A stretch of 41,659 nt of DNA from a virus: the IMG/VR virus record IMGVR_UViG_3300031455_000098, positions 1 through 41,659 of that record; one strand, given 5' to 3'. Shown in pieces: positions 891 to 41,659 of the stretch; the stretch's first letter is position 1; each line of letters begins with the position of its first letter. The position numbers were made by a program, and so were the translations under genes. The notes beneath the pieces were generated by a model. It saw nothing but the letters and a program-made list of their open reading frames with translations. It was not told the origin of the DNA and searched no databases.

Positions 891-1043
891 TCAGGCGACT
901 GGAGCGCCCGGGGCGACATCGCGAATAAGCAGCACCGTACCGGGTGGTGAAGGGAACGTCTCGTAGCCAGGATGCGAGGCGATCCAAGCGTCCAGCGCTC
1001 CTTGCCAATCCTCGTCAGGGCCGGCGCCGCAGCGAACGACCAT
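891..1043 (-). CDS. Small protein, last gene of the early operon
   Basis: A 50-codon ORF from ATG at 1043; GTG at 1052 in the same frame is an alternative start. The frame is open back to the mor stop codon, and a CTG there overlaps that TGA. The product is acidic to neutral, with GPDEDWQGALDAWIASHPGY near the start and a hydrophobic TVLLIRDV segment near the end. I do not recognise it. It is supported by protein-like composition, by its position between mor and a hairpin terminator, and by the absence of any other explanation for this stretch. The ribosome binding site is weak. Confidence 0.45.
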   Translation of the reverse strand: MVVRCGAGPDEDWQGALDAWIASHPGYETFPSPPGTVLLIRDVAPGAPVA

Positions 1044-1069
1044 CTCGTGCACGGCAACGAGTCTCGCGG

Positions 1070-1432
1070 TCAGTCGGCGGGGTCAAACAGGGCGCCCTGG
1101 CGCAGCGCGTAGGCGGCGGATTCGACGAGCTTGATGCGGCGGTAGGCGGTCTGGATGCAGACGCCGAAGTGCTTGGCGACGGCGACCGCGTCGCGGCCGT
1201 TGGCCAGGTAGAGCGAGAACATGTCGCGGTCGCGCTGGTCGATCTTGGCGAGCGCGTTCATCGGGATGTAGATCAGTTGACCGCCGAACTCCGAGCAGAC
1301 GTCCTGGGCGATCTGCATGCCGATCTCGGCCGCGCGCTCCTCCGGAACCGCCAGCTCGTCGCGCACAATGCGCGTGGCCACGTCGGCCAGCTCGCGGGTC
1401 AGGTTGGCGAAGCGGTCGAGGTTGGCGCTCAT
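1070..1432 (-). CDS. mor: Mor-family transcriptional activator
   Basis: A 120-residue protein of the Mor/C family, which in Mu switches on middle and late promoters by binding dyad DNA as a dimer and recruiting RNA polymerase. The N-terminal half (residues 10-60) is the helical dimerisation region. The C-terminal half contains GRDAVAVAKHFGVCIQTAYRRIK (quoted in part: AVAKHFGV, QTAYRRI), a clear helix-turn-helix at about residues 79-101. ATG at 1432 overlaps the stop of the upstream gemA-like gene by 4 bp (ATGA), so the two are translationally coupled. Its place at the end of the early operon fits a role in turning on the rightward late genes; a matching dyad element occurs at 15484 and 23212. 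Confidence 0.85.
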   Translation of the reverse strand: MSANLDRFANLTRELADVATRIVRDELAVPEERAAEIGMQIAQDVCSEFGGQLIYIPMNALAKIDQRDRDMFSLYLANGRDAVAVAKHFGVCIQTAYRRIKLVESAAYALRQGALFDPAD

Positions 1433-1911
1433 CCTGTCGCCTGCTCCTTCGCGGCGAGCTCGATGCGGGCGAGCCAGCGTTTGAGCTGCTCGATGACGGA
1501 CGAGGTCGCCTGCCGGTCCAGGTGCTGCGGGGCGATCTCGTCGCCGATGGCGCCGGGCAGATGGCCGGCGATGTAGCGGCGCAACGCCCGGTCGCTGTTG
1601 TCGTCGACGGCGCCGGCCTGGTGCAGCTGCGTCCAGAGCCAACGGATCAACGCGGCGGGCGTGCCCTTCTTGTAGGCCGTGCCGCCGGCCGTCGAAGTGT
1701 CCTTCCAACCGCAGCTGCGCAGGTGGCGCAAGACGGCCTCGCGGCCGCCGCCGTCCAAGTCCTTCGCCGAGCGGACGCGGGCGACCGACCACAGCATGTC
1801 GCGGTACGTGTCGTCTTCCAGGTGCAGCTGCGCCTTGGCGATGTGGATCTTGGCCAGATCGTTCGAGCGTTCCGGCTTGCCGTTTGCGCCGCGACGGCGA
1901 GGCGCGCTCAT
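1429..1911 (-). CDS. gemA: GemA-like regulatory protein (Mu gp16 family, DUF1018)
   Basis: 160 residues. The family signature is visible at residues 20-70: IHIAKAQLHLEDDTYRDML, then SAKDLDGGGREAVLRHLRSCGWK in part (GREAVLRHL, CGWK). In Mu this protein modulates host gene expression and is made early. The start is ATG 1911, preceded by a strong GGAGGA ribosome binding site. A longer frame upstream is ignored because it overlaps the neighbouring gene. Overlaps of 4 bp on both sides show a tightly coupled operon with mor downstream. The C-terminal half (QHLDRQATSSVIEQLKRWLA) is helical and typical of the family. Confidence 0.85.
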   Translation of the reverse strand: MSAPRRRGANGKPERSNDLAKIHIAKAQLHLEDDTYRDMLWSVARVRSAKDLDGGGREAVLRHLRSCGWKDTSTAGGTAYKKGTPAALIRWLWTQLHQAGAVDDNSDRALRRYIAGHLPGAIGDEIAPQHLDRQATSSVIEQLKRWLARIELAAKEQATG

Positions 1912-2171
1912 TGCTCCTCCCAACCCTGTGCGAGAAGCTGCTCGGCCTTCGGCAGCAGCGCATCGCTGTCGGGCTCCACGATAAACACGTCGATCTCGTT
2001 TGGCTTGGAGCAGTCCCATAGGACCTCCGCGACGGGATGATGATCGCCGTGCTCGTGGAACTTGAGCGCCATTCCAGGATGAGGGATGAAAGGCAGCGTC
2101 GTGCGCAGGGCGAGATCCAACGCTGGGCCATCATCCCCTGGCGAAGCAACGCAGTAGATGGTTGCTTTCAC
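1908..2171 (-). CDS. Hypothetical early phage protein, 87 aa
   Basis: Not recognised. A compact alpha/beta-looking protein starting MKATIYCVASPGDDGPALDL and ending PKAEQLLAQGWEEQ. There are no obvious metal-binding or DNA-binding motifs and no membrane segment. It is joined to its neighbours by 4-bp overlaps at both ends (start with the 2168 gene, stop with gemA). Base composition is somewhat richer in A/T at third positions than the transposase region, as for the next several genes, which may mark a more recently exchanged segment. Confidence 0.7.
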   Translation of the reverse strand: MKATIYCVASPGDDGPALDLALRTTLPFIPHPGMALKFHEHGDHHPVAEVLWDCSKPNEIDVFIVEPDSDALLPKAEQLLAQGWEEQ

Positions 2172-2449
2172 GGATTCCGCTCCTGGCCTTCATAGCCAGG
2201 CGCCGGGAGCGCCTTCCCATTCTCGATGAAATCGGACTTCACCCCATTCAGGCGCGGCGCGTTGATTCGGACTTTGAGGAAGTCGACCTCGACACGCGCA
2301 GAGTCGATGATGGTCTTCGCGACATCGCTCATCGCTTTCGCCCGCGTGATCTCGCGTTCGAGGCCACCGTCCTTTACCACGTCGTCGTCGCTCAAGCGTT
2401 CAAGCTGCTCGAACAGATGGTTCCGAAGGTCTTCAATCTTGTTTTTCAT
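2168..2449 (-). CDS. Hypothetical phage protein, helical, 93 aa
   Basis: Begins MKNKIEDLRNHLFEQLERL, then REITRAKAMSDVAKTIIDSA and ARVEVDFLKV. This pattern (short N-terminal helix, then an AKA..DVA..II.SA.VEVDF helix) is one I know from conserved small early proteins of many temperate phages; no function is established. It contains a high proportion of charged helix, and a dimeric helical bundle is likely. The start is ATG 2449, inside the end of the upstream HNH-like gene (17-bp overlap). The stop overlaps the start of the 1908 gene. Confidence 0.75.
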   Translation of the reverse strand: MKNKIEDLRNHLFEQLERLSDDDVVKDGGLEREITRAKAMSDVAKTIIDSARVEVDFLKVRINAPRLNGVKSDFIENGKALPAPGYEGQERNP

Positions 2450-3146
2450 GGGTCCCCTTTTCGAGTCCTCGGATCTTGCGATTGAGCGCGCTGCGCAGCT
2501 GGATCAGCTGTGGCAGCGGCGCTGGCAGGTTGTGCACGGTGTTGCGTCGCATGTTCTCTCGGAGCGACACCAGCTCGATTCGATCGATCGTGATCTCCGA
2601 CGCGATGAACGTCTTCCTGCCTGGGCGAAAAACGACGATGTGGCCGGGCGGCACGACGCCGTGAGCGGACTCCCAGACCAAGACGTGGACAGGTCGCCAA
2701 CGCATCACGGGAAAGATCGAAGGATCGTCTGTGATCTTGCGCATCAACACGCGGCGCTTAGGGTGGACCTTCTCGGTACCGATCGGCACATAGTTGCGCG
2801 CCTCGCTCGCGGGACGCCCCTTCTTGAATTGCGTTGCTGCCATACGACCTGGCGCCCAGCCGGGGCGACGCAACCCTTTGTTCGCCGGCACGTTGCCCTT
2901 TGGGAATCGATAGGCGGCGCCGACGTTGTCACCGCGACGCAGCCGGCATGCCTCCGGCGAAGCCAGATACGCGTCCGTCTTTTTCAGCCCGAGCCGCTTC
3001 GCGCCGCCGGCGACGACACACTCCCGTAGCTCCATCGCGGCAGCGATGATCCGCGTAGGGATGTGGGGGTAGAACTCGCGCAGCACGATCAGCTCGGCCG
3101 CATCCCACCTGTGACGAGGAGCAAGGATTCCGCGAGACTTGGTCAT
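2433..3146 (-). CDS. HNH-like endonuclease, phage family
   Basis: A 237-residue protein. The N-terminal 50 residues (RHRWDAAELIVLREFYPHIP, TRIIAAAMELRE) form a Myb-like helical DNA-binding region; the centre is basic and glycine-rich (ANKGLRRPGWAPGRM). At about 160-185 lies an HNH-like core, HVLVWESAHGVVPPGHIVVF, followed by helical C-terminus. The His of the family is present (HVLVW, PPGHIVVF), but the second Asn/His pair is not obvious, so nuclease activity is uncertain. The first 49 codons are duplicated at 4140-4290. ATG 3146 overlaps the stop of the upstream 39-codon ORF. Probable role is an early or packaging-related nuclease. Confidence 0.7.
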   Translation of the reverse strand: MTKSRGILAPRHRWDAAELIVLREFYPHIPTRIIAAAMELRECVVAGGAKRLGLKKTDAYLASPEACRLRRGDNVGAAYRFPKGNVPANKGLRRPGWAPGRMAATQFKKGRPASEARNYVPIGTEKVHPKRRVLMRKITDDPSIFPVMRWRPVHVLVWESAHGVVPPGHIVVFRPGRKTFIASEITIDRIELVSLRENMRRNTVHNLPAPLPQLIQLRSALNRKIRGLEKGTHEKQD

Positions 3147-3186
3147 GGGCGCGCCTTCCGGGCCCGAGGCCGCGAGTACCAGTGCA
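2996..3186. repeat. Direct repeat copy 1 (191 bp)
   Basis: Identical to 4140-4330 except for one base (T at 3027, A at 4171). It spans the last 14 codons of the upstream gene and the first 50 codons of the HNH-like gene. The offset between copies is 1144 bp, and the copies bracket the NADAR cassette. Confidence 0.95.
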
Positions 3187-3262
3187 GAACGTCCTCGCGC
3201 ATTGCCCCCGCATACGTCTCGGGCAGCTTATCGAGTTCGGACTGATAGCGAGTCGTAGGCAT
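3143..3262 (-). CDS. Small chimeric ORF, 39 aa
   Basis: Starts MPTTRYQSELDKLPETYAGA and ends with WYSRPRARKARP. The last 14 residues, together with the stop that overlaps the HNH start (ATGA), lie inside the 191-bp repeat and are the same as the C-terminus of the gene at 4287-4538. So this ORF looks like a foreign 5' portion joined to the duplicated 3' end of that gene. AGGAC about 15 bases upstream of ATG 3262 is a weak ribosome binding site. It may be functional, or simply a scar of the cassette insertion. Confidence 0.5.
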   Translation of the reverse strand: MPTTRYQSELDKLPETYAGAMREDVLHWYSRPRARKARP

Positions 3263-3281
3263 CGTACGCGCGCAGGTCCTA

Positions 3282-3866
3282 CTAGGCAGCCACGCGAATC
3301 GATTCGCGGATGGCTGGTCTGCTCACTTGCTTGGCCTTCTTTGTGCTGGCCTTTGCCGATGATTCGTCCTGCGCTCTGATCTCGTCGCGGACCTCCATCA
3401 GCAGCACTCCCAGCATGTTTTGTCCCTTTCCGTTCACTTCGCCCCACGTCCGGTTGACGGCATTGTCGGTGCGTCCTGCCTCCACCAGCCGTGCGTCGCC
3501 CGTCGAGAGGAGCAGCTGCTTGAGATCCTCGTGCTGGTTGAACTTGGCGCTCAGCACCTTGCGCATCCTGTCGAACTTGGTTCGCGACCACTCGGGGACG
3601 ATATCCCAGGTGTAGAGACCGTGCGCCGCCATTGCGACCAGCGACGGCGTGGGCGCACTGAGGATCCATTCGCGCACTTCATCCTTTCTCGCCTTACCGG
3701 CCTGATAGGCGTGCTCCGCGGTTGGATACACGCGGCCTTCGAACTCCATCGGGCGTCGGAAGAGATTGCTGAAGGCGCCGAAGGGCTTTTCGTTCGACCT
3801 GTAGAACGGAATATCAGCCTTCTTGACCGACTTGGCGGGCTTCCGAGTCGCGGTGTTTTTCTTCAT
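3282..3866 (-). CDS. NADAR-family (YbiA/DUF1768-like) protein
   Basis: A 194-residue protein with the full NADAR pattern: FYRSNEKPFGAFSNLFRRPM near 21-40, PTAEHAYQAGKAR near 48-60, DRMRKVLSAKFNQ near 99-111, LKQLLLSTGDARLVEA near 115-130, and WGEVNGKGQNMLGVLLMEVR in the 141-160 stretch. The Lys-rich N-terminus (1-18) and C-terminal tail (168-194) are extensions. Family members act on ADP-ribose-type or riboflavin-pathway N-glycosides; some remove ADP-ribose from guanine in DNA and serve as antitoxins to DarT-like toxins. In a phage this suggests defence against host ADP-ribosylation; that is inference. ATG 3866 overlaps the preceding stop (ATGA). A longer in-frame upstream extension reads through another gene remnant and is not used. 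No toxin partner is visible. Confidence 0.85.
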   Translation of the reverse strand: MKKNTATRKPAKSVKKADIPFYRSNEKPFGAFSNLFRRPMEFEGRVYPTAEHAYQAGKARKDEVREWILSAPTPSLVAMAAHGLYTWDIVPEWSRTKFDRMRKVLSAKFNQHEDLKQLLLSTGDARLVEAGRTDNAVNRTWGEVNGKGQNMLGVLLMEVRDEIRAQDESSAKASTKKAKQVSRPAIRESIRVAA

Positions 3867-4139
3867 GGGCTGGTCTCCTGGTTGGCAGCTGGAATGGGGA
3901 TGTCGTGGGACTTGCAGTGATTGAGGATCAGGACCTCGATCAGGTTCACGATCGGCCCACGATGACCGACCGCCCTTCGTGAGATCCCGGCCGGCAGACG
4001 TGCCCGCGTTCGGATGCTTCGACTCGACGGCGGCTTTCAGCGCTGCGTCGCGACCATCTGGCAAGACGGCCTGGCCGAACTGAGAGGAAATTGCTTGCAC
4101 CCATCCGATCGCGAACGCTTCGCCTCGTGCGACCTTGTT
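3863..4139 (-). pseudogene. Gene remnant upstream of the NADAR gene
   Basis: Two protein-like segments sit in different frames. Residues such as EAFAIGWVQAISSQFGQAV and LPDGRDAALK are read in one frame (about 4037-4139). A second frame, ending at TGA 3863 and overlapping the NADAR ATG, reads GPIVNLIEVLILNHCKSHDI then PIPAANQETSP. No start codon serves the second frame. The simplest reading is the 3' part of a small phage gene that lost its 5' end when recombination fused it to the HNH repeat, and which may also carry a frameshift. I do not recognise the parent gene. Confidence 0.45.
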
Positions 4140-4290
4140 GCTTCGCGCCGCCGGCGACGACACACTCCCGAAGCTCCATCGCGGCAGCGATGATCCGCGT
4201 AGGGATGTGGGGGTAGAACTCGCGCAGCACGATCAGCTCGGCCGCATCCCACCTGTGACGAGGAGCAAGGATTCCGCGAGACTTGGTCAT
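4140..4290 (-). pseudogene. Truncated 5' copy of the HNH-like gene
   Basis: The first 49-50 codons are identical in protein to the intact gene at 2433-3146, up to CVVAGGAK. After that the frame runs into unrelated sequence and ends without any HNH core. ATG 4290 still overlaps the stop of the upstream gene, so translation initiation is probably retained, but the product would be a short N-terminal DNA-binding fragment with an arginine-rich junk tail. It arose as part of the 191-bp duplication. Confidence 0.8.
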
Positions 4291-4330
4291 GGGCGCGCCT
4301 TCCGGGCCCGAGGCCGCGAGTACCAGTGCA
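4140..4330. repeat. Direct repeat copy 2 (191 bp)
   Basis: Partner of 2996-3186, 190 of 191 bases the same. It includes the end of the 4287-4538 gene and the truncated HNH start. Near-identity shows the duplication is recent compared with ordinary phage gene divergence. Confidence 0.95.
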
Positions 4331-4538
4331 CCTCGTCCATGTCCGCCTCAAGCGCCCTCGCGTGACCACGTAGAACAGAAGCTGCGTCATCCAGCTTGCG
4401 CTCCAGGAACCCGTCAACGTCTCCCCACCAGCCGCCTGCCTCGCGGAGTGATTCCGCGGCGGCGGCCAACTTCTTCACCGCGGCACGTGAAAATCTCAGA
4501 GCGGTGAGTACCTCGGGATCGAGCTTGGCCGGCTTCAC
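4287..4538 (-). CDS. Hypothetical early protein, 83 aa
   Basis: GTG start at 4538 with a GGGAGG ribosome binding site; a longer frame upstream is rejected because it is arginine-rich shadow. The protein begins MKPAKLDPEVLTALRFSRAA, has a helical alanine-rich core (AVKKLAAAAESLREAG) and GWWGDVDGFLERKLDDAASV, and ends HWYSRPRARKARP. The basic C-terminus suggests nucleic-acid contact, but no family is recognised. Its stop overlaps the start of the truncated HNH copy; originally it would have preceded the intact HNH gene directly, so the cassette split a two-gene unit. Confidence 0.7.
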   Translation of the reverse strand: MKPAKLDPEVLTALRFSRAAVKKLAAAAESLREAGGWWGDVDGFLERKLDDAASVLRGHARALEADMDEVHWYSRPRARKARP

Positions 4539-4918
4539 GGCACACCTCCCGGCGGCGTGAGCATCGTGAGGCATTGGCGGTTGGCGCCCACGACCGCCAG
4601 GCCGCGGGCCAGCAGCCAGTCGACAGCGCGGCGGATGTGGCCCGCGGCCTGGTCGAGGGTCTCGGTCTCCGCGCCGTTCTCGCCGACGAACGTGTAGACG
4701 CCCATGCCGCGGTGATACACGCATTCGCGCTCGACGATTTCGGTCATGCTCTCGTCGGTGAACGCGAGCGCACGCTGCGTGATCGCCTCCTGGGCCCGGT
4801 ACGCGAGGATGGCGTTTCGCGCGAGCATCTGATCGCCATCCGTCGCGCGGCCGACCATGAGCCGGTCCAGCGTGCCCTCGGGCAGTTCGGTGATTTCTGC
4901 CGTGCGGCGCTGGTTCAC
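4535..4918 (-). CDS. Hypothetical early protein, 127 aa
   Basis: Not recognised. It starts MNQRRTAEITELPEGTLDRL; the middle is helical (DGDQMLARNAILAYRAQEAI), and the end has a likely small helical domain (TLDQAAGHIRRAVDWLLARG) and a hydrophobic strand LAVVGANRQCLTML. There are no cysteine clusters or membrane segments. It overlaps both neighbours by 4 bp (GTGA and ATGA type), so it is an integral member of the early operon between the Gam-like and the 83-aa gene. Confidence 0.7.
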   Translation of the reverse strand: MNQRRTAEITELPEGTLDRLMVGRATDGDQMLARNAILAYRAQEAITQRALAFTDESMTEIVERECVYHRGMGVYTFVGENGAETETLDQAAGHIRRAVDWLLARGLAVVGANRQCLTMLTPPGGVP

Positions 4919-5436
4919 GTGACGTCCTCCAGATCCTTGTCGTTGACCAGGGCGTCGATGAGCTTGTCCAGGTCGCTGTCGGCGGCCTTGATCACGACCG
5001 CGTCGATATCGTCGGATAGGGTCACGCCGAGGCGCTTGAGATCCTTCGCTGGCAGGTTGGCCAGCGCGGTCATGACCGGTTTCTCGGTGACCTTGATGTA
5101 GCCGACTGCCTCCTCGCCGAGCATCTTGCGGATGCGATCGACGATCCCGTCCGGATCGCCAACTTCCAGCTTGCCTCGCTGTTTCATCCAGCCCACGCGG
5201 ATGCCGTGCATGACGCGGGTCTTTGGGTTGTCGAACAGATCCTTTCCGGCCTGGACCGCCGTCTTCAGTTCGTCGTGCGCCGACTGAACGCGGCCGAGCG
5301 CGTTCTTGATGCCCTGCAGGCGCCGACGCTTCGCGTCCTCCTGCTCCTTGCGCAAGGTCTCCAGGCGCTCGGCGAGTTCCGCACGCGCGGCGGCGAATAC
5401 TTTGGTGAGGCTTTCGATCTGGGTCATGGTGCTCAT
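4915..5436 (-). CDS. Gam-like host-nuclease inhibitor (DNA end protector)
   Basis: 173 residues: a long N-terminal coiled coil (15-65, AARAELAERLETLRKEQEDA), then a compact domain with VGWMKQRGKLEVGDPDGIVD, EEAVGYIKVTEKPVMTALAN, and a C-terminal LKRLGVTLSDDIDAVVIK strand region. The order (coiled coil, V.W strand, D..IV helix, K..L helix, lkrLGV..) matches Mu Gam family proteins, which bind linear DNA ends, resist RecBCD and resemble Ku. The match is by pattern only. ATG 5436 is preceded by GAGGAAA. The early-operon location fits protection of transposing or incoming phage DNA. Confidence 0.65.
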   Translation of the reverse strand: MSTMTQIESLTKVFAAARAELAERLETLRKEQEDAKRRRLQGIKNALGRVQSAHDELKTAVQAGKDLFDNPKTRVMHGIRVGWMKQRGKLEVGDPDGIVDRIRKMLGEEAVGYIKVTEKPVMTALANLPAKDLKRLGVTLSDDIDAVVIKAADSDLDKLIDALVNDKDLEDVT

Positions 5437-5485
5437 GGTGTTTCCTCGTTGACGTGGCGGTGGCCTGCGGGGGCAGCGGGAACCG

Positions 5486-5830
5486 TCAAGTCGGGAGCTT
5501 CAGCTGGCCGAACAGATCGGGCAGCGAGATACGTTTCATGGCAGCGATCTGCTCGAGCGAGGACATCGCGCGCTTGCGCAGAAAGCTGATCGTCTGGTCG
5601 AGCTCGTCGGAGGTCGCAGCCAGGTAGTAGCCATCGTCGGGGTGCGCGCAGACGTGGTGGCCTTCGCTGCGCAGCTCGACCACGAGCTTGCGCACGAGAC
5701 GTTCCTCGCCGCGCGTGGGCTCGGCGCCGAGCAGCTGGCGCGCCAGCGCCGTTACCGTGACGCCGCGCGCGCGGCCGATGTGATTGCGCAGCGCGATGAG
5801 CAGCGTGTCGCGGGTGAGGACGTCATGCAT
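5486..5830 (-). CDS. Winged-helix phage protein, 114 aa
   Basis: Start ATG 5830 (MHDVLTRDTLLIALRNHIG), overlapping the stop of the upstream gene by 8 bp; an upstream ATG at 5860 lies well inside that gene and is less likely. A winged-helix fold is suggested by VTVTALARQLLG (helix 2), RGEERLVRKLVVELRSEGHH (recognition helix) and VCAHPDDGYYLAAT (wing). A C-terminal helix follows, LDQTISFLRKRAMSSLEQIA. Small proteins of this layout are frequent in phage replication regions; the DNA target is unknown. Confidence 0.7.
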   Translation of the reverse strand: MHDVLTRDTLLIALRNHIGRARGVTVTALARQLLGAEPTRGEERLVRKLVVELRSEGHHVCAHPDDGYYLAATSDELDQTISFLRKRAMSSLEQIAAMKRISLPDLFGQLKLPT

Positions 5831-6413
5831 CGAGCACCTCCGGATTGATGCCGGCAGCACGCAGCTGCTCGGCGGCTTGGTCGCGGGTAATCAGCCCGAG
5901 GTCGAGATCCCCGCGGATGCGTGAGATCGTCCACGTGCGCTGCACGCGCGCGTCGGCCTCGGTCGACCTGGCGGGGTCGCGGTGCTGCCCGCGCTGGCGC
6001 GCTTCCTCGGTCTGCCGTTCGGCCTGGGCCTCGGCCTTGTCGGCCAGGCCAAACACGATCTCGATCAGGTAGCCGTGGGTCTTGAGCGGCAGATCGAGCT
6101 TGCCGACATCGCGGTGCTCGACCATGCGTTCGAGCGCGGCTTGCCAGACGCTCAGCGGCGCGGCACGCGTGCTGCCCGCGCGCGTGACCTTCTCGTCGGC
6201 CAGCATCGGCTGGAGCTCGCCGAGGAGCTTCTCGACGCGATCGAAGTTGATCGCTCGACCGGCGGACCGGAACATGCCCAGGTACGCAGCGAGCAGGCGC
6301 GCGAGCGGCGCCGGCATGGCCAGCGCCTGCATCAACGCCGAGCGGCCCGCGTCGATCGCGAGGGCCGCTTCGAGCGCGAACGACGCGTTACAGGCGGGAC
6401 ACTTGACCAGCAT
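5823..6413 (-). CDS. Phage protein with N-terminal CxxC knuckle, 196 aa
   Basis: Starts MLVKCPACNASFALEAALAI, with Cys5-x2-Cys8 resembling half of a zinc ribbon; no second pair is visible, so a dimer site or a relic is possible. The middle (residues 30-125) is helical, including RLLAAYLGMFRS and VEKLLGELQPML. The C-terminal region is charged (AQAERQTEEARQRGQHRDPA) and ends with a small helical module, LGLITRDQAAEQLRAAGINP. Proteins with this layout occur in the replication or transposition region of Mu-like prophages, but I know of no defined role. Confidence 0.7.
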   Translation of the reverse strand: MLVKCPACNASFALEAALAIDAGRSALMQALAMPAPLARLLAAYLGMFRSAGRAINFDRVEKLLGELQPMLADEKVTRAGSTRAAPLSVWQAALERMVEHRDVGKLDLPLKTHGYLIEIVFGLADKAEAQAERQTEEARQRGQHRDPARSTEADARVQRTWTISRIRGDLDLGLITRDQAAEQLRAAGINPEVLDA

Positions 6414-6759
6414 CGGGCGTCATCCGTTGGTGGTGCGGGGCCGGTACGGCCTGCTCGCGCTGGATCTCCTCCAGCTGCCGCCACAGCGCGTCGACGCGCG
6501 CCTCCTTGTCCAGCAGCTGCTGGTGGGTCGCCTCGGCTGCCGCGAGCGTCGCATTCGCGCGCACGATGGCGCCGATGATCGAGCCCGCGATGAACGCCGT
6601 GAACAGGGCGCCCACGAGGCAGGCGCACTGCAACGCGAGCAGCCACGGGCTGCGCGTCATGCGCTGGACTTCGCGCGCGATCTTCTGGCGTTCGTTGGTC
6701 GCGCAGATCTCGCGCTCGCGCAGAACGTCGGCCAACAGGGAACGTGCGTTGGTACTCAT
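6388..6759 (-). CDS. Single-span membrane protein with coiled coil, 123 aa
   Basis: Start ATG 6759 after GGCAGGAG; longer upstream frames lie inside the next gene. One membrane segment is clear at residues 38-65 (WLLALQCACLVGALFTAFIA then GSIIGAIV). It is preceded by a basic cytoplasmic stretch (RQKIAREVQRM) and followed by a coiled coil (AAAEATHQQLLDKEARVDAL). The 3' end overlaps the next gene by 26 bp. It is unusual for a membrane protein to lie in the middle of a transposition operon; an envelope-linked early function such as exclusion is possible but unproven. Confidence 0.65.
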   Translation of the reverse strand: MSTNARSLLADVLREREICATNERQKIAREVQRMTRSPWLLALQCACLVGALFTAFIAGSIIGAIVRANATLAAAEATHQQLLDKEARVDALWRQLEEIQREQAVPAPHHQRMTPDAGQVSRL

Positions 6760-7046
6760 CTCCTGCCCCTCAAGTGATTGCGCAGCCGGTAGTACCAGGG
6801 GCGCCTGCGCTCGCGCTTCCCGTGATGGAATGGATCGACCAGTGCGCTGTCGCGCAGACCGGCGTCGGGGATCTCGCGCTCGATGCGCTCCTGGATGGCC
6901 GCCGCGAACGTGGACCGGGCAACGCGACGCGCGCGCAAGCCCACCGGCAGACTCATGAAGTGATCGAACGTCATGACCGCGCGCAGACCCGATGCGACGA
7001 ACTGCTCGCCCCAGTGCGCCAGGTGCTCGTCGGTATGCACGCTCAT
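6756..7046 (-). CDS. Hypothetical early protein, 96 aa
   Basis: ATG 7046 (MSVHTDEHLAHWGEQFVASG), overlapping the next and previous genes by 4 bp. It contains GLRAVMTFDHFMSLPVGLRA and ends in a very basic tail (HHGKRERRRPWYYRLRNHLR). The FDHF..LP.G pattern recalls small conserved early proteins of Mu-like phages, without known role. The basic tail suggests nucleic-acid or membrane-surface binding. Confidence 0.65.
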   Translation of the reverse strand: MSVHTDEHLAHWGEQFVASGLRAVMTFDHFMSLPVGLRARRVARSTFAAAIQERIEREIPDAGLRDSALVDPFHHGKRERRRPWYYRLRNHLRGRR

Positions 7047-7438
7047 GGCGCACCCCGCGCGATCACGTCGGCCTTTTCTGCCCAGGTGCGCCAGGACTTG
7101 GCGCGCCAGAACAACCCGCGGACGCCCTCCACGCGCACGAGCGCACCGCTGTTTGCGATCGCGACGCCCGTCACCGCGCGGGTCTCCGTTCCGCGCCGAA
7201 GCGCATCGCCGCATCGCGGATCTCGGCGTGGATCGCGATCGAGCAGACGCCAGTGCAGCAGGGGGTTGTCGCGCTGTACGACGCGCGCGACCCGCCCGTA
7301 CTGCGCATAGCGGTGGAGCATGCTGCTGACTTCGCACGTCTGGACGCCGAGCTGGTTGGCGACATCCCTCGATGTCATCGCGGTCGGCGACGCGGCGAGC
7401 GTGGACTGGACGCGGGACCACAGACCTGGCGTCTTCAT
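7043..7438 (-). CDS. Winged-helix/HTH protein, 131 aa
   Basis: MKTPGLWSRVQSTLAASPTA is followed by a helix-turn-helix, MTSRDVANQLGVQTCEVSSM, with LHRYAQYGRVARVV as the wing region (residues 20-60). The layout is that of a MarR/IclR-like winged helix. The C-terminal part includes VRVEGVRGLFWRAKSWRTWA, basic and aromatic. Overlaps of 4 bp at each end. A role as early regulator or replication accessory protein is likely; the target is unknown. Confidence 0.65.
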   Translation of the reverse strand: MKTPGLWSRVQSTLAASPTAMTSRDVANQLGVQTCEVSSMLHRYAQYGRVARVVQRDNPLLHWRLLDRDPRRDPRCGDALRRGTETRAVTGVAIANSGALVRVEGVRGLFWRAKSWRTWAEKADVIARGAP

Positions 7439-7707
7439 GAGCGCTCATCCCCGGTCTGGTCGGCACACTCACGCTGGAGCGTTTCGATCAGGCTTACTGC
7501 CTGGGCGAACGTGAGCGACGCGAGCGCGGTGTCGATGCGCTCACCTGGCTCGCGCACAGGCACACCTGCGGATTCGTAGAAGCGACGGTGCAGCAGCGTG
7601 ATCTGGTCCGTGGGCAGCTCGATCTCGCCCATGAGGATTCGGATGTAGTTGCGCTGGTTCGGCGTGGCCGGGCGCGTGGGCGCGAAGCCGGTGCGGGCGG
7701 TGCTCAT
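7435..7707 (-). CDS. Hypothetical early protein, 90 aa
   Basis: Start ATG 7707 (MSTARTGFAPTRPATPNQRN); a longer frame upstream is rejected as overlap. The sequence ATPNQRNYIRILMGEIELPT and RIDTALASLTFAQAVSLIET is typical of short phage proteins whose N-terminal segment (ATPKQ..YI..L) resembles the helical hairpin seen in small replication or recombination accessory proteins. I can give no defined function. The stop overlaps the next start by 4 bp. Confidence 0.65.
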   Translation of the reverse strand: MSTARTGFAPTRPATPNQRNYIRILMGEIELPTDQITLLHRRFYESAGVPVREPGERIDTALASLTFAQAVSLIETLQRECADQTGDERS

Positions 7708-7895
7708 CGGGCACCCCCCGCGCGCCGCACGGCACAGGTTTCGCAGCGCAGCACCTTGGCTCGCGGCAGCACGAGCATGCGGAAGCCCTCGGCGGGCTTC
7801 ATCCGCCGACACGCAGGGCAGCAGCGCTTGCCGCCCTGGGCCTTGATCAGCGCGTCGTTGACTTTCGTGTAGAGGGAGTTCGCGGCGTGGGCCAT
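7704..7895 (-). CDS. Zinc-ribbon small protein, 63 aa
   Basis: A 63-residue protein with CCPAC (Cys25, 26, 29) and CETC (Cys51, 54), a two-knuckle arrangement expected to bind one zinc ion. The segment between them is basic (RRMKPAEGFRMLVLPRAKVL). ATG 7895 overlaps the stop of the transposition ATPase gene (TGATG), so its translation is coupled to it. It is likely to bind nucleic acid or protein during transposition, but this is inference. Confidence 0.65.
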   Translation of the reverse strand: MAHAANSLYTKVNDALIKAQGGKRCCPACRRMKPAEGFRMLVLPRAKVLRCETCAVRRAGGAR

Positions 7896-9148
7896 CACAC
7901 CCTCCCCACGAGTTGCGCGTCGATCCTCGTGGCGCTGGAGGCGCCAAGCTCGACCGCGAGGTTCATCGCCTTGGCCACGAGATTGTTGATGACGAGCGGA
8001 TAAAGGTGCGACTCGACATCCGTCGAGCCCTGGCGGCGGCGCGTCAAGCGCGCCCGGATCGCGTCGAACGCATCGGCCGCGAACACGTCTGACAACTGCA
8101 GGCCGATGCGCTTGAATTTGAGGGCCAAGTACTCTTCGAGATTGCCGTTGAGGCTCTTGAGCCGTGCGACCTCGCATCGGCGGATGAACTCGCGCAGATC
8201 CGGATTGCGCTGCTCGTCCAGCCGCAGCGCAAGCTCGGGCTGGCCAACGAGCACGACGCCGATCAGTTTCTTGAAGCCGTCCTCCATCTCCCAGAAGCGC
8301 TTGAGGTACTTGATCGTGGGGTTGGAGAGGTCGTGGGCTTCCTCGATGATCAGGACGTGCGCATGACCGATGCCAGCGCTGGCAGCGAGGATGCGCTGGA
8401 TCTGGCGCGCCTTTGCTTCGAGCGAAAGCTTGGGCTGTTCGGCAGACAAGTCGGCGATGATCGCGTCGCAGATGTGCGCCGCGGTCAGCGCCTTCTTGTC
8501 GATCGTCTGAGGCTGGATGACGACGATCCGTTCGTTGTCGCGGCGTAGGCGATCGAGCAGGTCGCGGCGCAAGGTGGTCTTGCCGCTGCCGCTTTCACCG
8601 ATGATCGCCAACAGCCCCGCGTGCTTGGCCGCGTAGTACATCGACTCGCGCACGTAGCGCTGGTCGCGCGACAGGTAGACATCCTGCGGGCCCTGCACGT
8701 CGTTGACGAACGGGTGGGTCGCCAACTTGAAGTGTTCCTTTGCCGCGGGTGATAGCATTTCGTTCTCCGGTAGATCGAGTGAGGTCGCCTGCTCTGGCTC
8801 TGAATTGGCCTTCGCGCCCGAGCGGGAATTACTGGAGCCGGCGTGGGGATCGAGGTCACCCTCGATCTCCCACGCCGTTGCCGCGATGGCATCGGGCACG
8901 TTGTGTTCGCGCAGGAATTGCGCCGTCGTGGACTCGATGAGTTCGCGCGGCAACGTCATGGGCCAGACGCGCCGCGTGATCAGCGTGGAAATCGTCGTGT
9001 GCGACATGCGCTGACCGACCCGGACGCCGCTCTGATACGTGAGCCGGCTCGCGAGATCGCCTTGCTTGAGCGCGTGGTCGTAGAGGATCGCGCGGAGCTT
9101 GTAGGGCCCCGTGCTCTTCTCGCTGGACAGTGGACGGCCCGTGATCAT
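7895..9148 (-). CDS. ExeA-like AAA+ transposition ATPase (MuB/TnpB functional analogue)
   Basis: A 417-residue protein starting at ATG 9148; the longer frame upstream reads through the next gene. The N-terminus (17-60) has an HTH-like region, LKQGDLASRLTYQSGVRVGQ and SHTTISTLITRR. The ATPase core has Walker A GESGSGKT at 184-191 and Walker B VLIIEEAHD at 265-273, then a YLKRFWEMEDGFKKLIGVVL segment with sensor 1 and arginine-finger region LREFIRRCEVARLKSL. This matches the ExeA-type ATPases paired with the transposase of BcepMu-like phages, which choose target DNA and activate the transposase. The transposase gene lies two genes upstream in the operon. Confidence 0.85.
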   Translation of the reverse strand: MITGRPLSSEKSTGPYKLRAILYDHALKQGDLASRLTYQSGVRVGQRMSHTTISTLITRRVWPMTLPRELIESTTAQFLREHNVPDAIAATAWEIEGDLDPHAGSSNSRSGAKANSEPEQATSLDLPENEMLSPAAKEHFKLATHPFVNDVQGPQDVYLSRDQRYVRESMYYAAKHAGLLAIIGESGSGKTTLRRDLLDRLRRDNERIVVIQPQTIDKKALTAAHICDAIIADLSAEQPKLSLEAKARQIQRILAASAGIGHAHVLIIEEAHDLSNPTIKYLKRFWEMEDGFKKLIGVVLVGQPELALRLDEQRNPDLREFIRRCEVARLKSLNGNLEEYLALKFKRIGLQLSDVFAADAFDAIRARLTRRRQGSTDVESHLYPLVINNLVAKAMNLAVELGASSATRIDAQLVGRV

Positions 9149-9149
9149 G

Positions 9150-9461
9150 TCAGCGCACCACGGCCAGGCGCATGGGCTGCGCGACGCGCAGCGGCTCGAC
9201 CTGGGCATCACGCGGCAACGCGACGAGCATGCCGGCCTGGTGGTGGCTCGCATCGTGTGCGGCGATCACGACGCACCAGATGCGCGCCCCATCCATCACA
9301 CCCATCGCATCGTGCGAGAGCAGCGCGAACACGTGGTCGGGATCGTTGACCGGTTGGAACAGCCGCCCGGGCATCATCTGATGCACGCGCGGGAACGGGC
9401 GACACGGTGGCGCGCAATCGAGCGCGTCGACCGATGAAACTGCGGGGGCTGCGTATGACAT
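9150..9461 (-). CDS. Hypothetical protein between transposase and ATPase genes, 103 aa
   Basis: ATG 9461 with GGAG upstream; MSYAAPAVSSVDALDCAPPC then FPRVHQMMPGRLFQPVNDPD. The core alternates hydrophobic strands (VFALLSHDAMGVMDGARIWC, VVIAAHD) and ends QVEPLRVAQPMRLAVVR. Possibly a small beta-rich protein. It is not recognised and has no known motif. Its constant neighbours suggest an accessory role in transposition or early growth. Confidence 0.6.
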   Translation of the reverse strand: MSYAAPAVSSVDALDCAPPCRPFPRVHQMMPGRLFQPVNDPDHVFALLSHDAMGVMDGARIWCVVIAAHDASHHQAGMLVALPRDAQVEPLRVAQPMRLAVVR

Positions 9462-9998: not shown

Positions 9999-11774
9999 TC
10001 AGCGCACCGCGACGAGGCGCGGCGCGTCGGTGGGTGCCGGCGGCATGCCGGCAGAACTGAGTTGCTGGATGCGCTCGACGAGCCGCTCGACTTCCTCGTG
10101 CGGCACGCCGTCGGGAAACCACGCCCGCACGGCTTCGGCTTCGGCGGCGACCAGGGGGCGCTGCAGGCGCGCGCGCAGTTCCATGAGCGCGTCGATGTGC
10201 GTGAGGGGACGCAGCTCGACGTGCATCGGGTTTGGCAAGTGCAGCTCGGTGCCGCGACGCTGCATGTACGCAGGCGTCTGCTCGGCTTTCTCGCGCGAGT
10301 CGGCGAATGGATCGATGCGGCCATCGAACGCGATGGCGCCCTTGGTTTTCGCGGCCGTGGCATCGAGCGTTTCGCGCGCGCCGTAGGCCGCTTCGTTGGC
10401 CTCCTTGCGCGCGGTGTCGACATCGGTGTCCGCCTGCGCCGCGTAGCGCTCGCCATAGACCGGCGCGTCGGCAAAGAAGCCCGCGGCGTCGAGTGCGATC
10501 GGCTCGCACTCCCAGTAGCGCGTGCTGCCGTCCTCATCCTTGCCGACGACGAAGATCGCCGGGGCACGGTACGGATTGGCGACCACGTCGACGGTTTCGC
10601 CGACGCGCACGCACGGCACGTGCGCGACGCTGTAGGTCGCGCGCTCGTGACCGCGCGGGCGGAACGTGATCGTAAGGTTGCCGATGACCGTGCGCGGCTC
10701 GGGCTTGGAATGCATGAGCACGGCGCAGGTCGCGATCGGCGGGCACAGGCGCAGCTGGTCGGTACGGATCGTCTGCCACAGCGCGTCGCGGGTGTGGCCG
10801 TGGCGGCGCATCACGTGTGCCCCGTTGAATCCGCGCAGCCACGTGTCCAGGTGGGCGTTGAGCTGCTCGATGCTGTCGATGCGCGTGAACGTGAGCCGGC
10901 CCTCGAACTTGCGCTCGATCACGTTGTGCACGCACTCGATCTGACCCTTCGCGCGCGGGTTGCCGGGGATGTGCGCCCAGTGGCGGACGGCCAGCTGATC
11001 GAGCAGGTTGCGAATGCCGTGGCTCTGGTTGGCTGAGCCTGCATCCCAGACGAACATCCACGGCACGCCGTGCATGACGCGGCCGGGCTGCGGCCGGAAC
11101 GCGAACAGCAGGAAATCGAACAGGGTTTTCTGATCCTCGCCCGCGGCCTCGTAGTAGCGCGCGATGACATCGCCCGTGTAGTGATCCGTCAGCGCGTAGC
11201 GCATGACGCGCTGATTGCCGATGCGCGCCAGATCCTTGGGCTTGCGCGCGTTGAACGTGCGCTCGTCCATGACCGCGGCCTGGCCGTTGCGCAGGTAGTA
11301 CAGGACGCAGATCGACGCATCGAGCTGCCAGACGTGGTTGGGGTGGAGCGAGCGCATGCTCGTGTGCGGCGTGGGCTGCGCGAGCTGGCTCGGATGACAG
11401 CCCTCGCGCCGCATGATGCGCAGCATCGTGGTGGGGCTCACGCGCTCGGTGAGAATGCCGTTCGCCCCGGCGACATCGATCGCATCGCACACCGGGAGCA
11501 TGCGCTTTCCGGTGGTTCGACGAGAGGCTTGCAGCATCGCGGCGACCGTGCGCACCTGGTCGACGCTCACGCGGCTGTCGCCTTTGTCGGCGCGCAGCTT
11601 GCGGCCGCTGTTGTAGCCGACCTTGCGCAGGCGGGAGTAGAACGTCTGCACGCTCACGCCCAACGCGCGCGCACCTTCGGCCGCAATCTCTCCGCGGCCT
11701 TTGTGCGGCGCTTGCGTGAGTTGCTCTGCGTAGCGTGCGAGCAGCTGCATCGTTGCCAGTTCCCCTGCGTGCAT
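9999..11774 (-). CDS. Mu-type DDE transposase (BcepMu TnpA-like)
   Basis: A 591-residue protein that cuts and joins phage ends for integration and replicative transposition. The N-terminus (30-60) holds an HTH, ARALGVSVQTFYSRLRKVGY. The integrase-fold catalytic core has WQLDASI (Asp152), MFVWDAGSANQ (Asp244) and AKGQIECVHN (Glu280), giving D-x91-D-x35-E, a complete DD35E triad. A beta-barrel region follows (about 350-420), with VRVGETVDVVANPYRAPAIF, and a helical C-terminus that in this family contacts the partner ATPase. ATG 11774 has an AGGGG site; an alternative ATG lies 8 codons later. No defect is visible, so the enzyme looks intact. Confidence 0.9.
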   Translation of the reverse strand: MHAGELATMQLLARYAEQLTQAPHKGRGEIAAEGARALGVSVQTFYSRLRKVGYNSGRKLRADKGDSRVSVDQVRTVAAMLQASRRTTGKRMLPVCDAIDVAGANGILTERVSPTTMLRIMRREGCHPSQLAQPTPHTSMRSLHPNHVWQLDASICVLYYLRNGQAAVMDERTFNARKPKDLARIGNQRVMRYALTDHYTGDVIARYYEAAGEDQKTLFDFLLFAFRPQPGRVMHGVPWMFVWDAGSANQSHGIRNLLDQLAVRHWAHIPGNPRAKGQIECVHNVIERKFEGRLTFTRIDSIEQLNAHLDTWLRGFNGAHVMRRHGHTRDALWQTIRTDQLRLCPPIATCAVLMHSKPEPRTVIGNLTITFRPRGHERATYSVAHVPCVRVGETVDVVANPYRAPAIFVVGKDEDGSTRYWECEPIALDAAGFFADAPVYGERYAAQADTDVDTARKEANEAAYGARETLDATAAKTKGAIAFDGRIDPFADSREKAEQTPAYMQRRGTELHLPNPMHVELRPLTHIDALMELRARLQRPLVAAEAEAVRAWFPDGVPHEEVERLVERIQQLSSAGMPPAPTDAPRLVAVR

Positions 11775-15539: not shown

Positions 15540-15931
15540 ACACTCCCTCGAAGCTCTCGACGTTTCTCGGCTCCGCGCGTGACACATTGCGCGGCTTCTG
15601 GCTGCCGGTGCTCAGCGTCGCCACGACGTTCCTCGGCTCCGCGCGCGACAAGCTGCGCGGCATCACGCTGCTGCTGATCGGTGTCGCCACGTTGTGGCTC
15701 ATCGCCCAACCCAACCCGCTGGTGGAATACGCGCAGCCCGTGAAGATCGGCCTGCTCGCGTGGCTGGTCTGCAAGATCAGCATTGCCGCCTATCTGGGCT
15801 ACTGGATCGACCGGCTGCTGCATCCGCGCTCCCGGCCCGGCGCGCTGCGCGACATCGAGCGCATGGCCGCAGAAAAACGCCGGGCCTTCATCGTGTGCGC
15901 GTGCATCCTGGCTGCGGGGTTCTTCACGTGA
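15536..15931 (+). CDS. Putative holin
   Basis: A 131-residue membrane protein with predicted spans near 22-30/43-57 (GITLLLIGVATLWLIA), 70-92 (IGLLAWLVCKISIAAYLGYW) and 115-130 (AFIVCACILAAGFF). The segment ISIAAYLGYWIDRLLHPRSR with a following charged region is typical of putative holins of Xanthomonadales and Burkholderiales phages. It would form the inner-membrane hole that releases the transglycosylase encoded next (GTGA overlap). The N-terminus carries an internal repeat, TFLGSARDTLRG and TFLGSARDKLRG, 22 residues apart. No good ribosome binding site precedes the start, which is inside a hairpin. Confidence 0.75.
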   Translation: MDTPSKLSTFLGSARDTLRGFWLPVLSVATTFLGSARDKLRGITLLLIGVATLWLIAQPNPLVEYAQPVKIGLLAWLVCKISIAAYLGYWIDRLLHPRSRPGALRDIERMAAEKRRAFIVCACILAAGFFT

Positions 15932-40894: not shown

Positions 40895-41659
40895 ATGAAA
40901 CCGCTGATCCCGTGGCCGGGCGGAAAGACCCGCCTGGCCAAGACGCTGCTGCCGCTGTTCCCCGAACATTCCTGCTATGTGGAGCCATTCGCAGGCGCTG
41001 CCGCGCTCCTGTTCGCTCGCCCGGAACCTGCCCGCGTGGAGGTCATCAACGACGTCCACGGCGAGCTGATCCGCATGTACCGGTGCGTGGCTCACCACCT
41101 CGACGAGTTCGTCCGCCAGTTCCGCTGGGCGCTCGTGTCAAGGGAAATGTACCGCTGGCTCCAGCTGCAGGAGCTGGACACCTTGACCGACATCCAACGC
41201 GGCGCGCGGTTCTTCTACCTCCAGCGCCTCGCGTTCGCTGGCAAGGTCGACGGCAAGACGTTCGGCTACTCGACCACGGGCCGGCCTGGCTTGAACCTGC
41301 TGCGGGTGGAGGAGGCGCTCAGCGAGGCGCACCTGCGGCTCGCCCAGGTCACGATCGAGCAGCTGCCCTGGCAGGCGATGTTCCAGCGGTACGACCGACC
41401 GCACACGTTCTTCTTCTGCGATCCTCCCTACTGGGAGACGGAAGGCTACGGCGTCGACTTCGGGCTCGATCAATACGAGCAGCTGGCTGACCGCATGAGG
41501 CAGGCGCAAGGGAAGGTCCTGCTCACGGTCAACGACCACCCGAAGATGCGCGAGACGTTCGCCGGTTTACGTAGGACCAAGGTGCCGATCCGCTACATGA
41601 TGGGCAACAAGTCGGGGCCGCCAAAGCAGAGCATCGAGCTGGTCATCCGGAGCTGGTGA
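40895..41659 (+). CDS. dam: Dam-type adenine-N6 DNA methyltransferase (D12 class)
   Basis: 254 residues, ATG 40895 with GGAGG. Motifs: PLIPWPGGKTRLAK (residues 3-16, the SAM-binding PGGK), YVEPFAGAAALLF (28-40), and DPPYW (176-180), the catalytic motif IV; IELVIRSW ends the protein, and the stop codon is the last base of the window. Transfers a methyl group to the N6 of adenine, probably in GATC. Phage-encoded Dam can protect against host restriction or set methylation-sensitive promoters. It is probably the last or near-last gene before the prophage right end. Confidence 0.85.
   Translation: MKPLIPWPGGKTRLAKTLLPLFPEHSCYVEPFAGAAALLFARPEPARVEVINDVHGELIRMYRCVAHHLDEFVRQFRWALVSREMYRWLQLQELDTLTDIQRGARFFYLQRLAFAGKVDGKTFGYSTTGRPGLNLLRVEEALSEAHLRLAQVTIEQLPWQAMFQRYDRPHTFFFCDPPYWETEGYGVDFGLDQYEQLADRMRQAQGKVLLTVNDHPKMRETFAGLRRTKVPIRYMMGNKSGPPKQSIELVIRSW

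Follow-up and report, generated by a model that had tools for sequence, protein, structure and literature searches.

What, if anything, does a phage gain from a single NADAR gene placed among its early genes? The first-pass annotation of this DNA suggested that the protein might counter DNA ADP-ribosylation, given that some NADAR proteins remove ADP-ribose from guanine and neutralise DarT-type toxins. The window, by which we mean the whole stretch of DNA analysed here, is a viral contig 41,659 bases long (IMGVR_UViG_3300031455_000098). By gene content it is a Mu-like prophage, with matches for transposase A (9999-11774, minus strand; tblastn matches to Mu-like phage transposases in 58 phage records), a DNA transposition protein B-like ATPase (7895-9253, minus strand; phrog_296, E 1.8e-60), a Mu Gam-like protein (4915-5436, minus strand; phrog_491, E 2.3e-13) and a Mor-type activator, which Pfam and phrog searches place in the C-terminal part of the open reading frame at 1070-2149. 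It is read as a prophage because a host gene of the KDPG-aldolase type occupies its left end (1-648). This aldolase is up to 72% identical to proteins from the order of Lysobacter silvestris (100 of 299 genomes at E<=1e-60), which is consistent with, and not proof of, a phage host from that order. Megablast of positions 1000-9300 against 50,697 phage records returned no near-identical phage DNA. An open reading frame that closes the record on the right (40895-41659) resembles by eye a D12/Dam-class DNA adenine methylase and is possibly a second protective gene of the phage, and a tandem 66-nt repeat lies at 15558-15689 in two copies that are 80% alike.

The NADAR gene (3282-3866) is real and complete, running on the minus strand, which the annotation had not stated, from an ATG at 3866 through 194 codons to a TAG at 3284-3282. 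Its family assignment is far beyond chance: the 194-residue product matches Pfam PF08719 over profile positions 2-163 of 163 (E 2.2e-28; 100 bits against a cut-off of 35.1) and phrog_1017 (E 3.1e-32), and it passes the NCBIfam model for the riboflavin-intermediate N-glycosidase, TIGR02464, with 92 bits against 73.7. Among solved chains, phmmer finds E. coli YbiA (E 2e-23) and the Phytophthora NADAR with ADP-ribose (E 2e-7). The structure prediction that had been proposed as a check on the pocket gave a confident fold with the tested pocket residues kept. The AlphaFold2 model, made with 42 sequences, has a pLDDT of 92.2 and a YbiA-like fold, with closest solved structures (Foldseek/VIA-align) in YbiA 2b3w (Z 19.1, Foldseek E 9e-12) and the Phytophthora enzyme 8bau (Z 18.0, Foldseek E 4e-8); the DarT1-linked NADAR of Geobacter (G. 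lovleyi) is the most distant solved relative (Z 8.0, Foldseek E 0.21). Catalytic and pocket residues reported for the P. nicotianae NADAR are E43, K50, E125, D130 and W133 (in the available text of PMC11543638). Alignment with YbiA and the Phytophthora protein places their equivalents at E51, K58, E129 and D134, and W141 is the pocket tryptophan by motif, with a spacing that is off by 4 residues. E51, K58, E129 and W141 are invariant across 84 relatives, and D134 is not among the invariant positions. The phage copy retains all 48 columns that are invariant in 84 system NADARs and all 69 that are conserved in at least 95% of them.

The pass against TIGR02464 and the proximity to YbiA raise the possibility of a housekeeping-like N-glycosidase, acting on riboflavin intermediates or in swarming as the E. 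coli protein does. We consider this very improbable, because the subfamily to which the gene belongs resides in a CARF/PRTase locus, described below, and because the model cannot separate these roles: a NADAR from the annotated defence pair DS32 (L225) passes TIGR02464 as well, with 89 bits.

A single residue in the last strand region has been used to divide the family, with Glu marking the YbiA type, Asp the DarT1-linked type (BC4488) and His the T4-type phage proteins, according to the available portion of PMC11125620. The phage protein carries Glu here (E129, aligned with YbiA and 8bau) and is thereby of the YbiA (Glu) type; neither the Asp of BC4488 nor the His of T4 gp30.3 is present. This bears directly on the DarT1 proposal, in which the protein would strip ADP-ribose from guanine in phage DNA and so neutralise DarT1-type toxins. 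In its favour, the pocket is kept, and every NADAR class assayed in the same paper, including those of T4 phage and YbiA, removed ADP-ribose from guanosine in vitro (PMC11125620). Removal of ADP-ribose on RNA is also reported (PMC11833690, available part). On the other hand, the in vitro cleavage of guanosine-ADPr by YbiA and the T4-phage enzyme was not matched by protection of cells from DarT1, as reported in the accessible text of PMC11125620. The Glu type and the large structural distance from the G. lovleyi protein (E 0.21, Z 8.0 against 19.1 for YbiA) also speak against it. The absence of an adjacent toxin partner, which the annotation had remarked on, extends to the whole of this possibly incomplete record, in which DarT (PF14487) has no match even at E 10. 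Likewise, a NADAR shared a contig with DarT in 0 of 21 DarT-bearing genomes among 299 from the order of Lysobacter silvestris. Taken with the origin of the gene in a PRTase-CE/CARF locus, the residue type, the lack of DarT1 rescue by YbiA and T4 proteins and the missing linkage leave DarT1 unsupported as the target, and we regard it as improbable. The general idea of an intact NADAR with a counter-defence role stands, given the pocket and fold; having been cut from a PRTase-CE/CARF locus, the gene points to an opponent other than DarT1.

Where, then, did the gene come from? A first single-protein scan of viral contigs for NADAR relatives found none. Plasmid records contain relatives with 66-71% identity in eight alphaproteobacterial or Paraburkholderia plasmids, all of them beside the same set of genes, and at least three partner families accompany each of the eight. 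Partner families, counted within about 9 kb, were HAD/SIS, PRTase-CE, an ORC/CDC6-like ATPase, CARF and PfkB. Scanned with a profile, the genome collection yielded 192 NADAR relatives, and among the best 80 of these, 75 loci have at least two partner families beside the NADAR gene and 69 have at least four. The five exceptions are L029, L082, L086, L090 and L094; L029, L086 and L094 are close to the end of their contig, and the surroundings of L090 look phage-like from the genes alone. The order in the host locus is regulator, NADAR, HAD/SIS, PRTase-CE, ORC/CDC6-like ATPase and CARF6, with PF24390 and PF24389 matched above their cut-offs, the HAD protein assigned to PF08282 and CARF6 identified by PADLOC at E 1e-114. 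In two contigs classed as viral (L097, L099) the other genes of the system accompany NADAR; these are either flanking host DNA or phages in possession of the complete system. A second NADAR group, 47-49% identical to the window protein, occurs on Paraburkholderia and Methylibium plasmids (L015, L016) in phage-like gene runs with DUF4326 genes.

The five closest loci (L017 to L021) come from Lysobacterales or from less precisely placed (gamma)proteobacteria and are 73-78% identical to the phage protein, 76% in the case of L017. With these five, the window protein forms a six-member clade with support of 99/95, and of 100/95 in a second tree. By sequence and tree, it is thus a member of the PRTase-CE/CARF6-locus subfamily that stands apart from the partner genes. 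The idea of an ordinary old phage gene was rejected, since all 426 phage matches are below 60% identity, the best at 47%, compared with 73-78% for the host loci. No published description of a CARF6/PRTase-CE/NADAR locus, or of a phage copy, was found in a literature search that left subscription papers and preprints mostly outside its reach.

What the phage DNA holds is one continuous slice of such a bacterial locus: the end of the regulator, the whole of NADAR and the start of HAD/SIS. In the host loci the end of the small regulator gene overlaps the start of NADAR, with HAD/SIS next in line. Of the regulator, the window retains the last ~27 codons at 3863-3943 (minus strand; 66.7% identity to the L017 protein over 33 aa by tblastn, E 8e-11, and DNA alignment with L017 to L021), and the stop of this stub overlaps the NADAR start codon (ATGA). 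The regulator is ribbon-helix-helix-like by eye only, and the L017 protein has no Pfam match. On the other side, the first ~24-25 codons of HAD/SIS lie at 3188-3262 (minus strand; 64.5% identity to the L020 protein over 31 aa by tblastn, E 2e-7, and DNA alignment) before running into a repeat. DNA alignment shows likeness to L017 through L021 from about 3943 down through NADAR, continuing with L021 to 3189. When the host-locus proteins were compared with the whole record by tblastn, NADAR and the two stubs were all that was found, and PRTase, ATPase, CARF and PfkB were absent, so that the earlier description of a lone NADAR holds. In our view these alignments show well that a single component was captured from a PRTase-CE/CARF6 locus.

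The slice occupies a variable slot among the early genes, bounded upstream by the Gam-like gene and downstream by a phrog_286 gene (1429-2019, minus strand; E 5.4e-31) that is also found in related phages. The early operon envisaged by the annotation fits by position, with NADAR lying between the Gam and Mor-type genes, on their strand and downstream of both transposition genes. What had been overlooked are the flanks, with truncated neighbour genes and a 199-nt direct repeat on both sides. Copy A (4140-4338, minus strand) comprises the end of the upstream gene and the first 50 HNH codons, and copy B (2996-3194, minus strand) lies within the intact HNH gene and its leader; both came from a repeat search, and the repeated sequence is the start of the HNH gene plus leader. 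The copies are identical at 195 of 199 positions (98%), with three of the four differences at one edge. The HNH endonuclease-like gene itself (2433-3146, minus strand) is intact at 237 aa and matches phrog_1891 (E 2.4e-35) and, just under the cut-off, Pfam HNH_3 (E 2.6e-4), while the gene preceding the cassette (4287-4724, minus strand) has no family in Pfam or phrog. Between copy A and the regulator stub is a remnant of a phage DUF2786/DUF7168-type gene, its C-terminal part (3946-4139, minus strand; blastp to L125 at E 2e-15 and L120 at E 4e-9; DUF7168 in Pfam at E 0.0025, below cut-off), and a gene of this type occupies the same slot in the related phage contigs L125 and L120. Recombination between the repeats would excise 1144 nt and bring back the cassette-free gene order. 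With transposase A as the query, 357 related viral contigs were found and 80 of them kept; NADAR is present in 0 of these 80, and the HNH gene was found in none of those among the 80 that share at least three genes.

This arrangement gives rise to the main rival of a counter-defence reading, namely that the gene is an accidental passenger: illegitimate recombination would have put host DNA into a tolerant slot with no benefit to the phage, or none yet. Both neighbouring genes are cut and unrepaired, and the DUF7168 remnant and the duplicated HNH start have the look of a messy and recent join. The gene is missing from all 80 of the related phages kept from 357. Codon changes, counted at columns where the other five sequences agree, point the same way, with a ratio of amino-acid to silent changes of 8:10 in the window and 21:80 pooled over the five host copies (Fisher p 0.04). 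Such an excess in the phage lineage fits relaxed constraint, and stubs that are both still readable suggest that the capture may be recent and unselected; these two points keep weight on the passenger. Against it, the open reading frame is whole and retains its start context, none of the 69 conserved columns has been lost, the gene is on the strand of the early genes, and solo members of the subfamily recur in other phage contigs. The evidence for selection, as judged from the sequences, is therefore mixed, and we consider the passenger rather unlikely though a serious contender.

The recurrence just mentioned concerns five further viral contigs (L098, L100 to L103), in which NADARs of the subfamily occur without partners. 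Clear phage genes accompany two of them, a terminase in L098 and an integrase and endolysin in L102, and those in L100, L101 and L103 are weaker; the L100 contig ends close behind NADAR, and a partner is possible there. In L101 (8650-10103) an HNH endonuclease gene of phrog_826 directly follows the solo NADAR, compared with phrog_1891 for the HNH gene of the window. A single origin of all solo phage copies was rejected at the borderline when the window and six others were forced together (p-AU 0.048), whereas the other six as one clade without the window gave p 0.63. At least two separate entries of NADAR into phages are therefore likely, with the tree alone being no proof.

Is the host locus a defence system? 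Above cut-off, PRTase-CE occurs in 12, NADAR in 28 and DarT in 21 of the 299 genomes from the order of Lysobacter silvestris. Eight of the 12 PRTase-CE genomes have a NADAR no more than 5 kb from the PRTase-CE gene, or 5 of 9 without the previously known G003, G004 and G256. In the order of Burkholderia sp. OK233 (300 genomes) the same linkage is seen in 3 of 7, and in 2 of 6 when the known G316 is left out. Three loci in the former order (L223 to L225) are tight two-gene pairs of PRTase-CE and NADAR, and these match an annotated anti-phage pair: all three NADARs exceed the DS32_2_antiphage cut-off (279-286 against 240), and both of the PRTases scanned pass DS32_1_antiphage, the phosphoribosyltransferase-like component (383 and 429 against 250). 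The window NADAR scores 64.2 bits against DS32_2 (NF053876), below the cut-off of 240, and DS32 is for this reason a relative and not the same system. In L223 and L224 the NADAR open reading frame is fused to a long C-terminal part matching a type I restriction specificity subunit, and type I methylase-like genes adjoin the fusion. A PRTase-CE-type gene with an ATPase gene and no NADAR is found at L226 (3248-7095), adjacent to a methyltransferase-like open reading frame and an HTH gene.

The host-locus PRTase is also akin to the retron PRTase_III-A (PADLOC, E 8e-20), described as a retron effector in the available part of PMC12548924. Its model has a pLDDT of 90 and no match to solved structures at E<=0.001 (best E 0.007), and many of the best matches, at E about 0.01, are uracil and purine PRTases. 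At E 1e-10, PADLOC finds 80 families in the flanks of the system loci and 31 in recA flanks, with few proteins in each. For the 20 system loci the sample was 117 of 119 flank proteins, all but the two longest; for 20 recA loci it was 116 of 188 flank proteins, after thinning to 119 and removal of three long ones. DefensePredictor describes validated systems that contain NADAR domains, and a PRTase is named in a figure legend on validated systems, in the accessible text of PMC13092281. We infer that what is described there corresponds to DS32; no paper under the name DS32 was found in the literature searched. Both folds of the DS32 pair recur in the larger locus, which, together with the kinship to retron III-A, suggests that the larger locus is an anti-phage defence system in which NADAR undoes the action of the PRTase.

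A mechanism can be proposed on this basis. Controlled by the CARF sensor and the ATPase, the PRTase-like protein would attach a (phospho)ribosyl group to a base or nucleotide through an N-glycosidic bond, and NADAR, as an N-glycosidase, would remove this adduct and so serve as the antitoxin or off-switch of the host locus. The phage would make NADAR early and alone, the adduct or signal would be erased and the defence blunted, in a manner we liken to phage antitoxin mimics that act on DarTG. The direct repeats would allow the cassette to be lost or multiplied through recombination. Both the defence function of the locus and the counter-defence function of the phage protein are what we infer, and we put the probability that an eraser or antitoxin taken from a PRTase/CARF defence has been turned to counter-defence use, the most likely use, at about one half.

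Alternatively, the prophage NADAR may shield the lysogen from the host's own locus or hamper rival phages, rather than aid lytic growth. The record is a prophage, going by the aldolase gene at 1-648, and prophages often carry defence genes. The gene's place, however, is within the early transposition operon and not a lysogenic cassette, and it lacks the partners that a defence would need, which makes this reading quite improbable, slightly more so than action against DarT1.

A broader version of the counter-defence reading is that PRTase-CE writers (phospho)ribosylate a nucleobase or nucleotide and NADARs erase the mark, as a second chemistry beside DarT-NADAR, with a five-gene CARF/ATPase form widespread in Proteobacteria that Mu-like phages defeat with a lone eraser in a droppable or multipliable repeat-flanked cassette by an HNH gene. 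This we put forward tentatively, as something that may well prove wrong. If true, phage theft would reveal the off-switch of an undescribed defence locus and offer a way into what the phosphoribosyltransferase-like protein does in DS32, in retron III-A and in the CARF6 locus. Counter-defence would gain a new kind, in which the enzyme is a copy taken out of the defence operon itself, and the lone NADARs of phages, for which action on ADP-ribose derivatives has long been predicted, would have a concrete opponent.

Several known systems can be set beside this one. DS32, an adjacent gene pair (NF053875 phosphoribosyltransferase-like and NF053876 NADAR), shares both folds with the host locus, but the latter adds HAD/SIS, ORC/CDC6-like and CARF6 proteins, and the phage differs in having NADAR alone, at 64 bits against 240. 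DarT1-NADAR (DarTG1) has in common with the window the NADAR fold, an eraser of base-linked ADP-ribose and possibly an antitoxin logic, whereas the Asp, the extended fold and the DarT partner of the DarT1-linked proteins are all missing from the window. E. coli YbiA carries the same Glu and is the best solved relative (E 2e-23, Z 19.1), but at no more than 37% identity the window NADAR therefore belongs to another subfamily; the neighbours of ybiA in E. coli are given as dinG, rhlE and ybiB (PMC11125620, available text). NADARs of the T4 gp30.3 type are likewise phage-borne early genes, and phage NADARs including these were already predicted (PMC9503650) to counter host NAD/ADPr systems; they have His in place of Glu (PMC11125620, in part), and the window gene is a slice of host DNA. 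AdfB of ICP1, as presented in the accessible portion of PMC11481870, resembles our proposal in that a phage protein takes the role of the antitoxin against a host DarTG defence, but it binds DarT directly in a macrodomain DarTG setting, whereas the window would supply an enzyme copied from the locus. Finally, SegB-driven amplification of anti-defence genes, in the available text of PMC13096335, offers a parallel to an endonuclease gene beside a repeat-flanked, possibly anti-defence gene, with the difference that the nuclease of the window is of the HNH type, not SegB, and amplification is not seen in the window.
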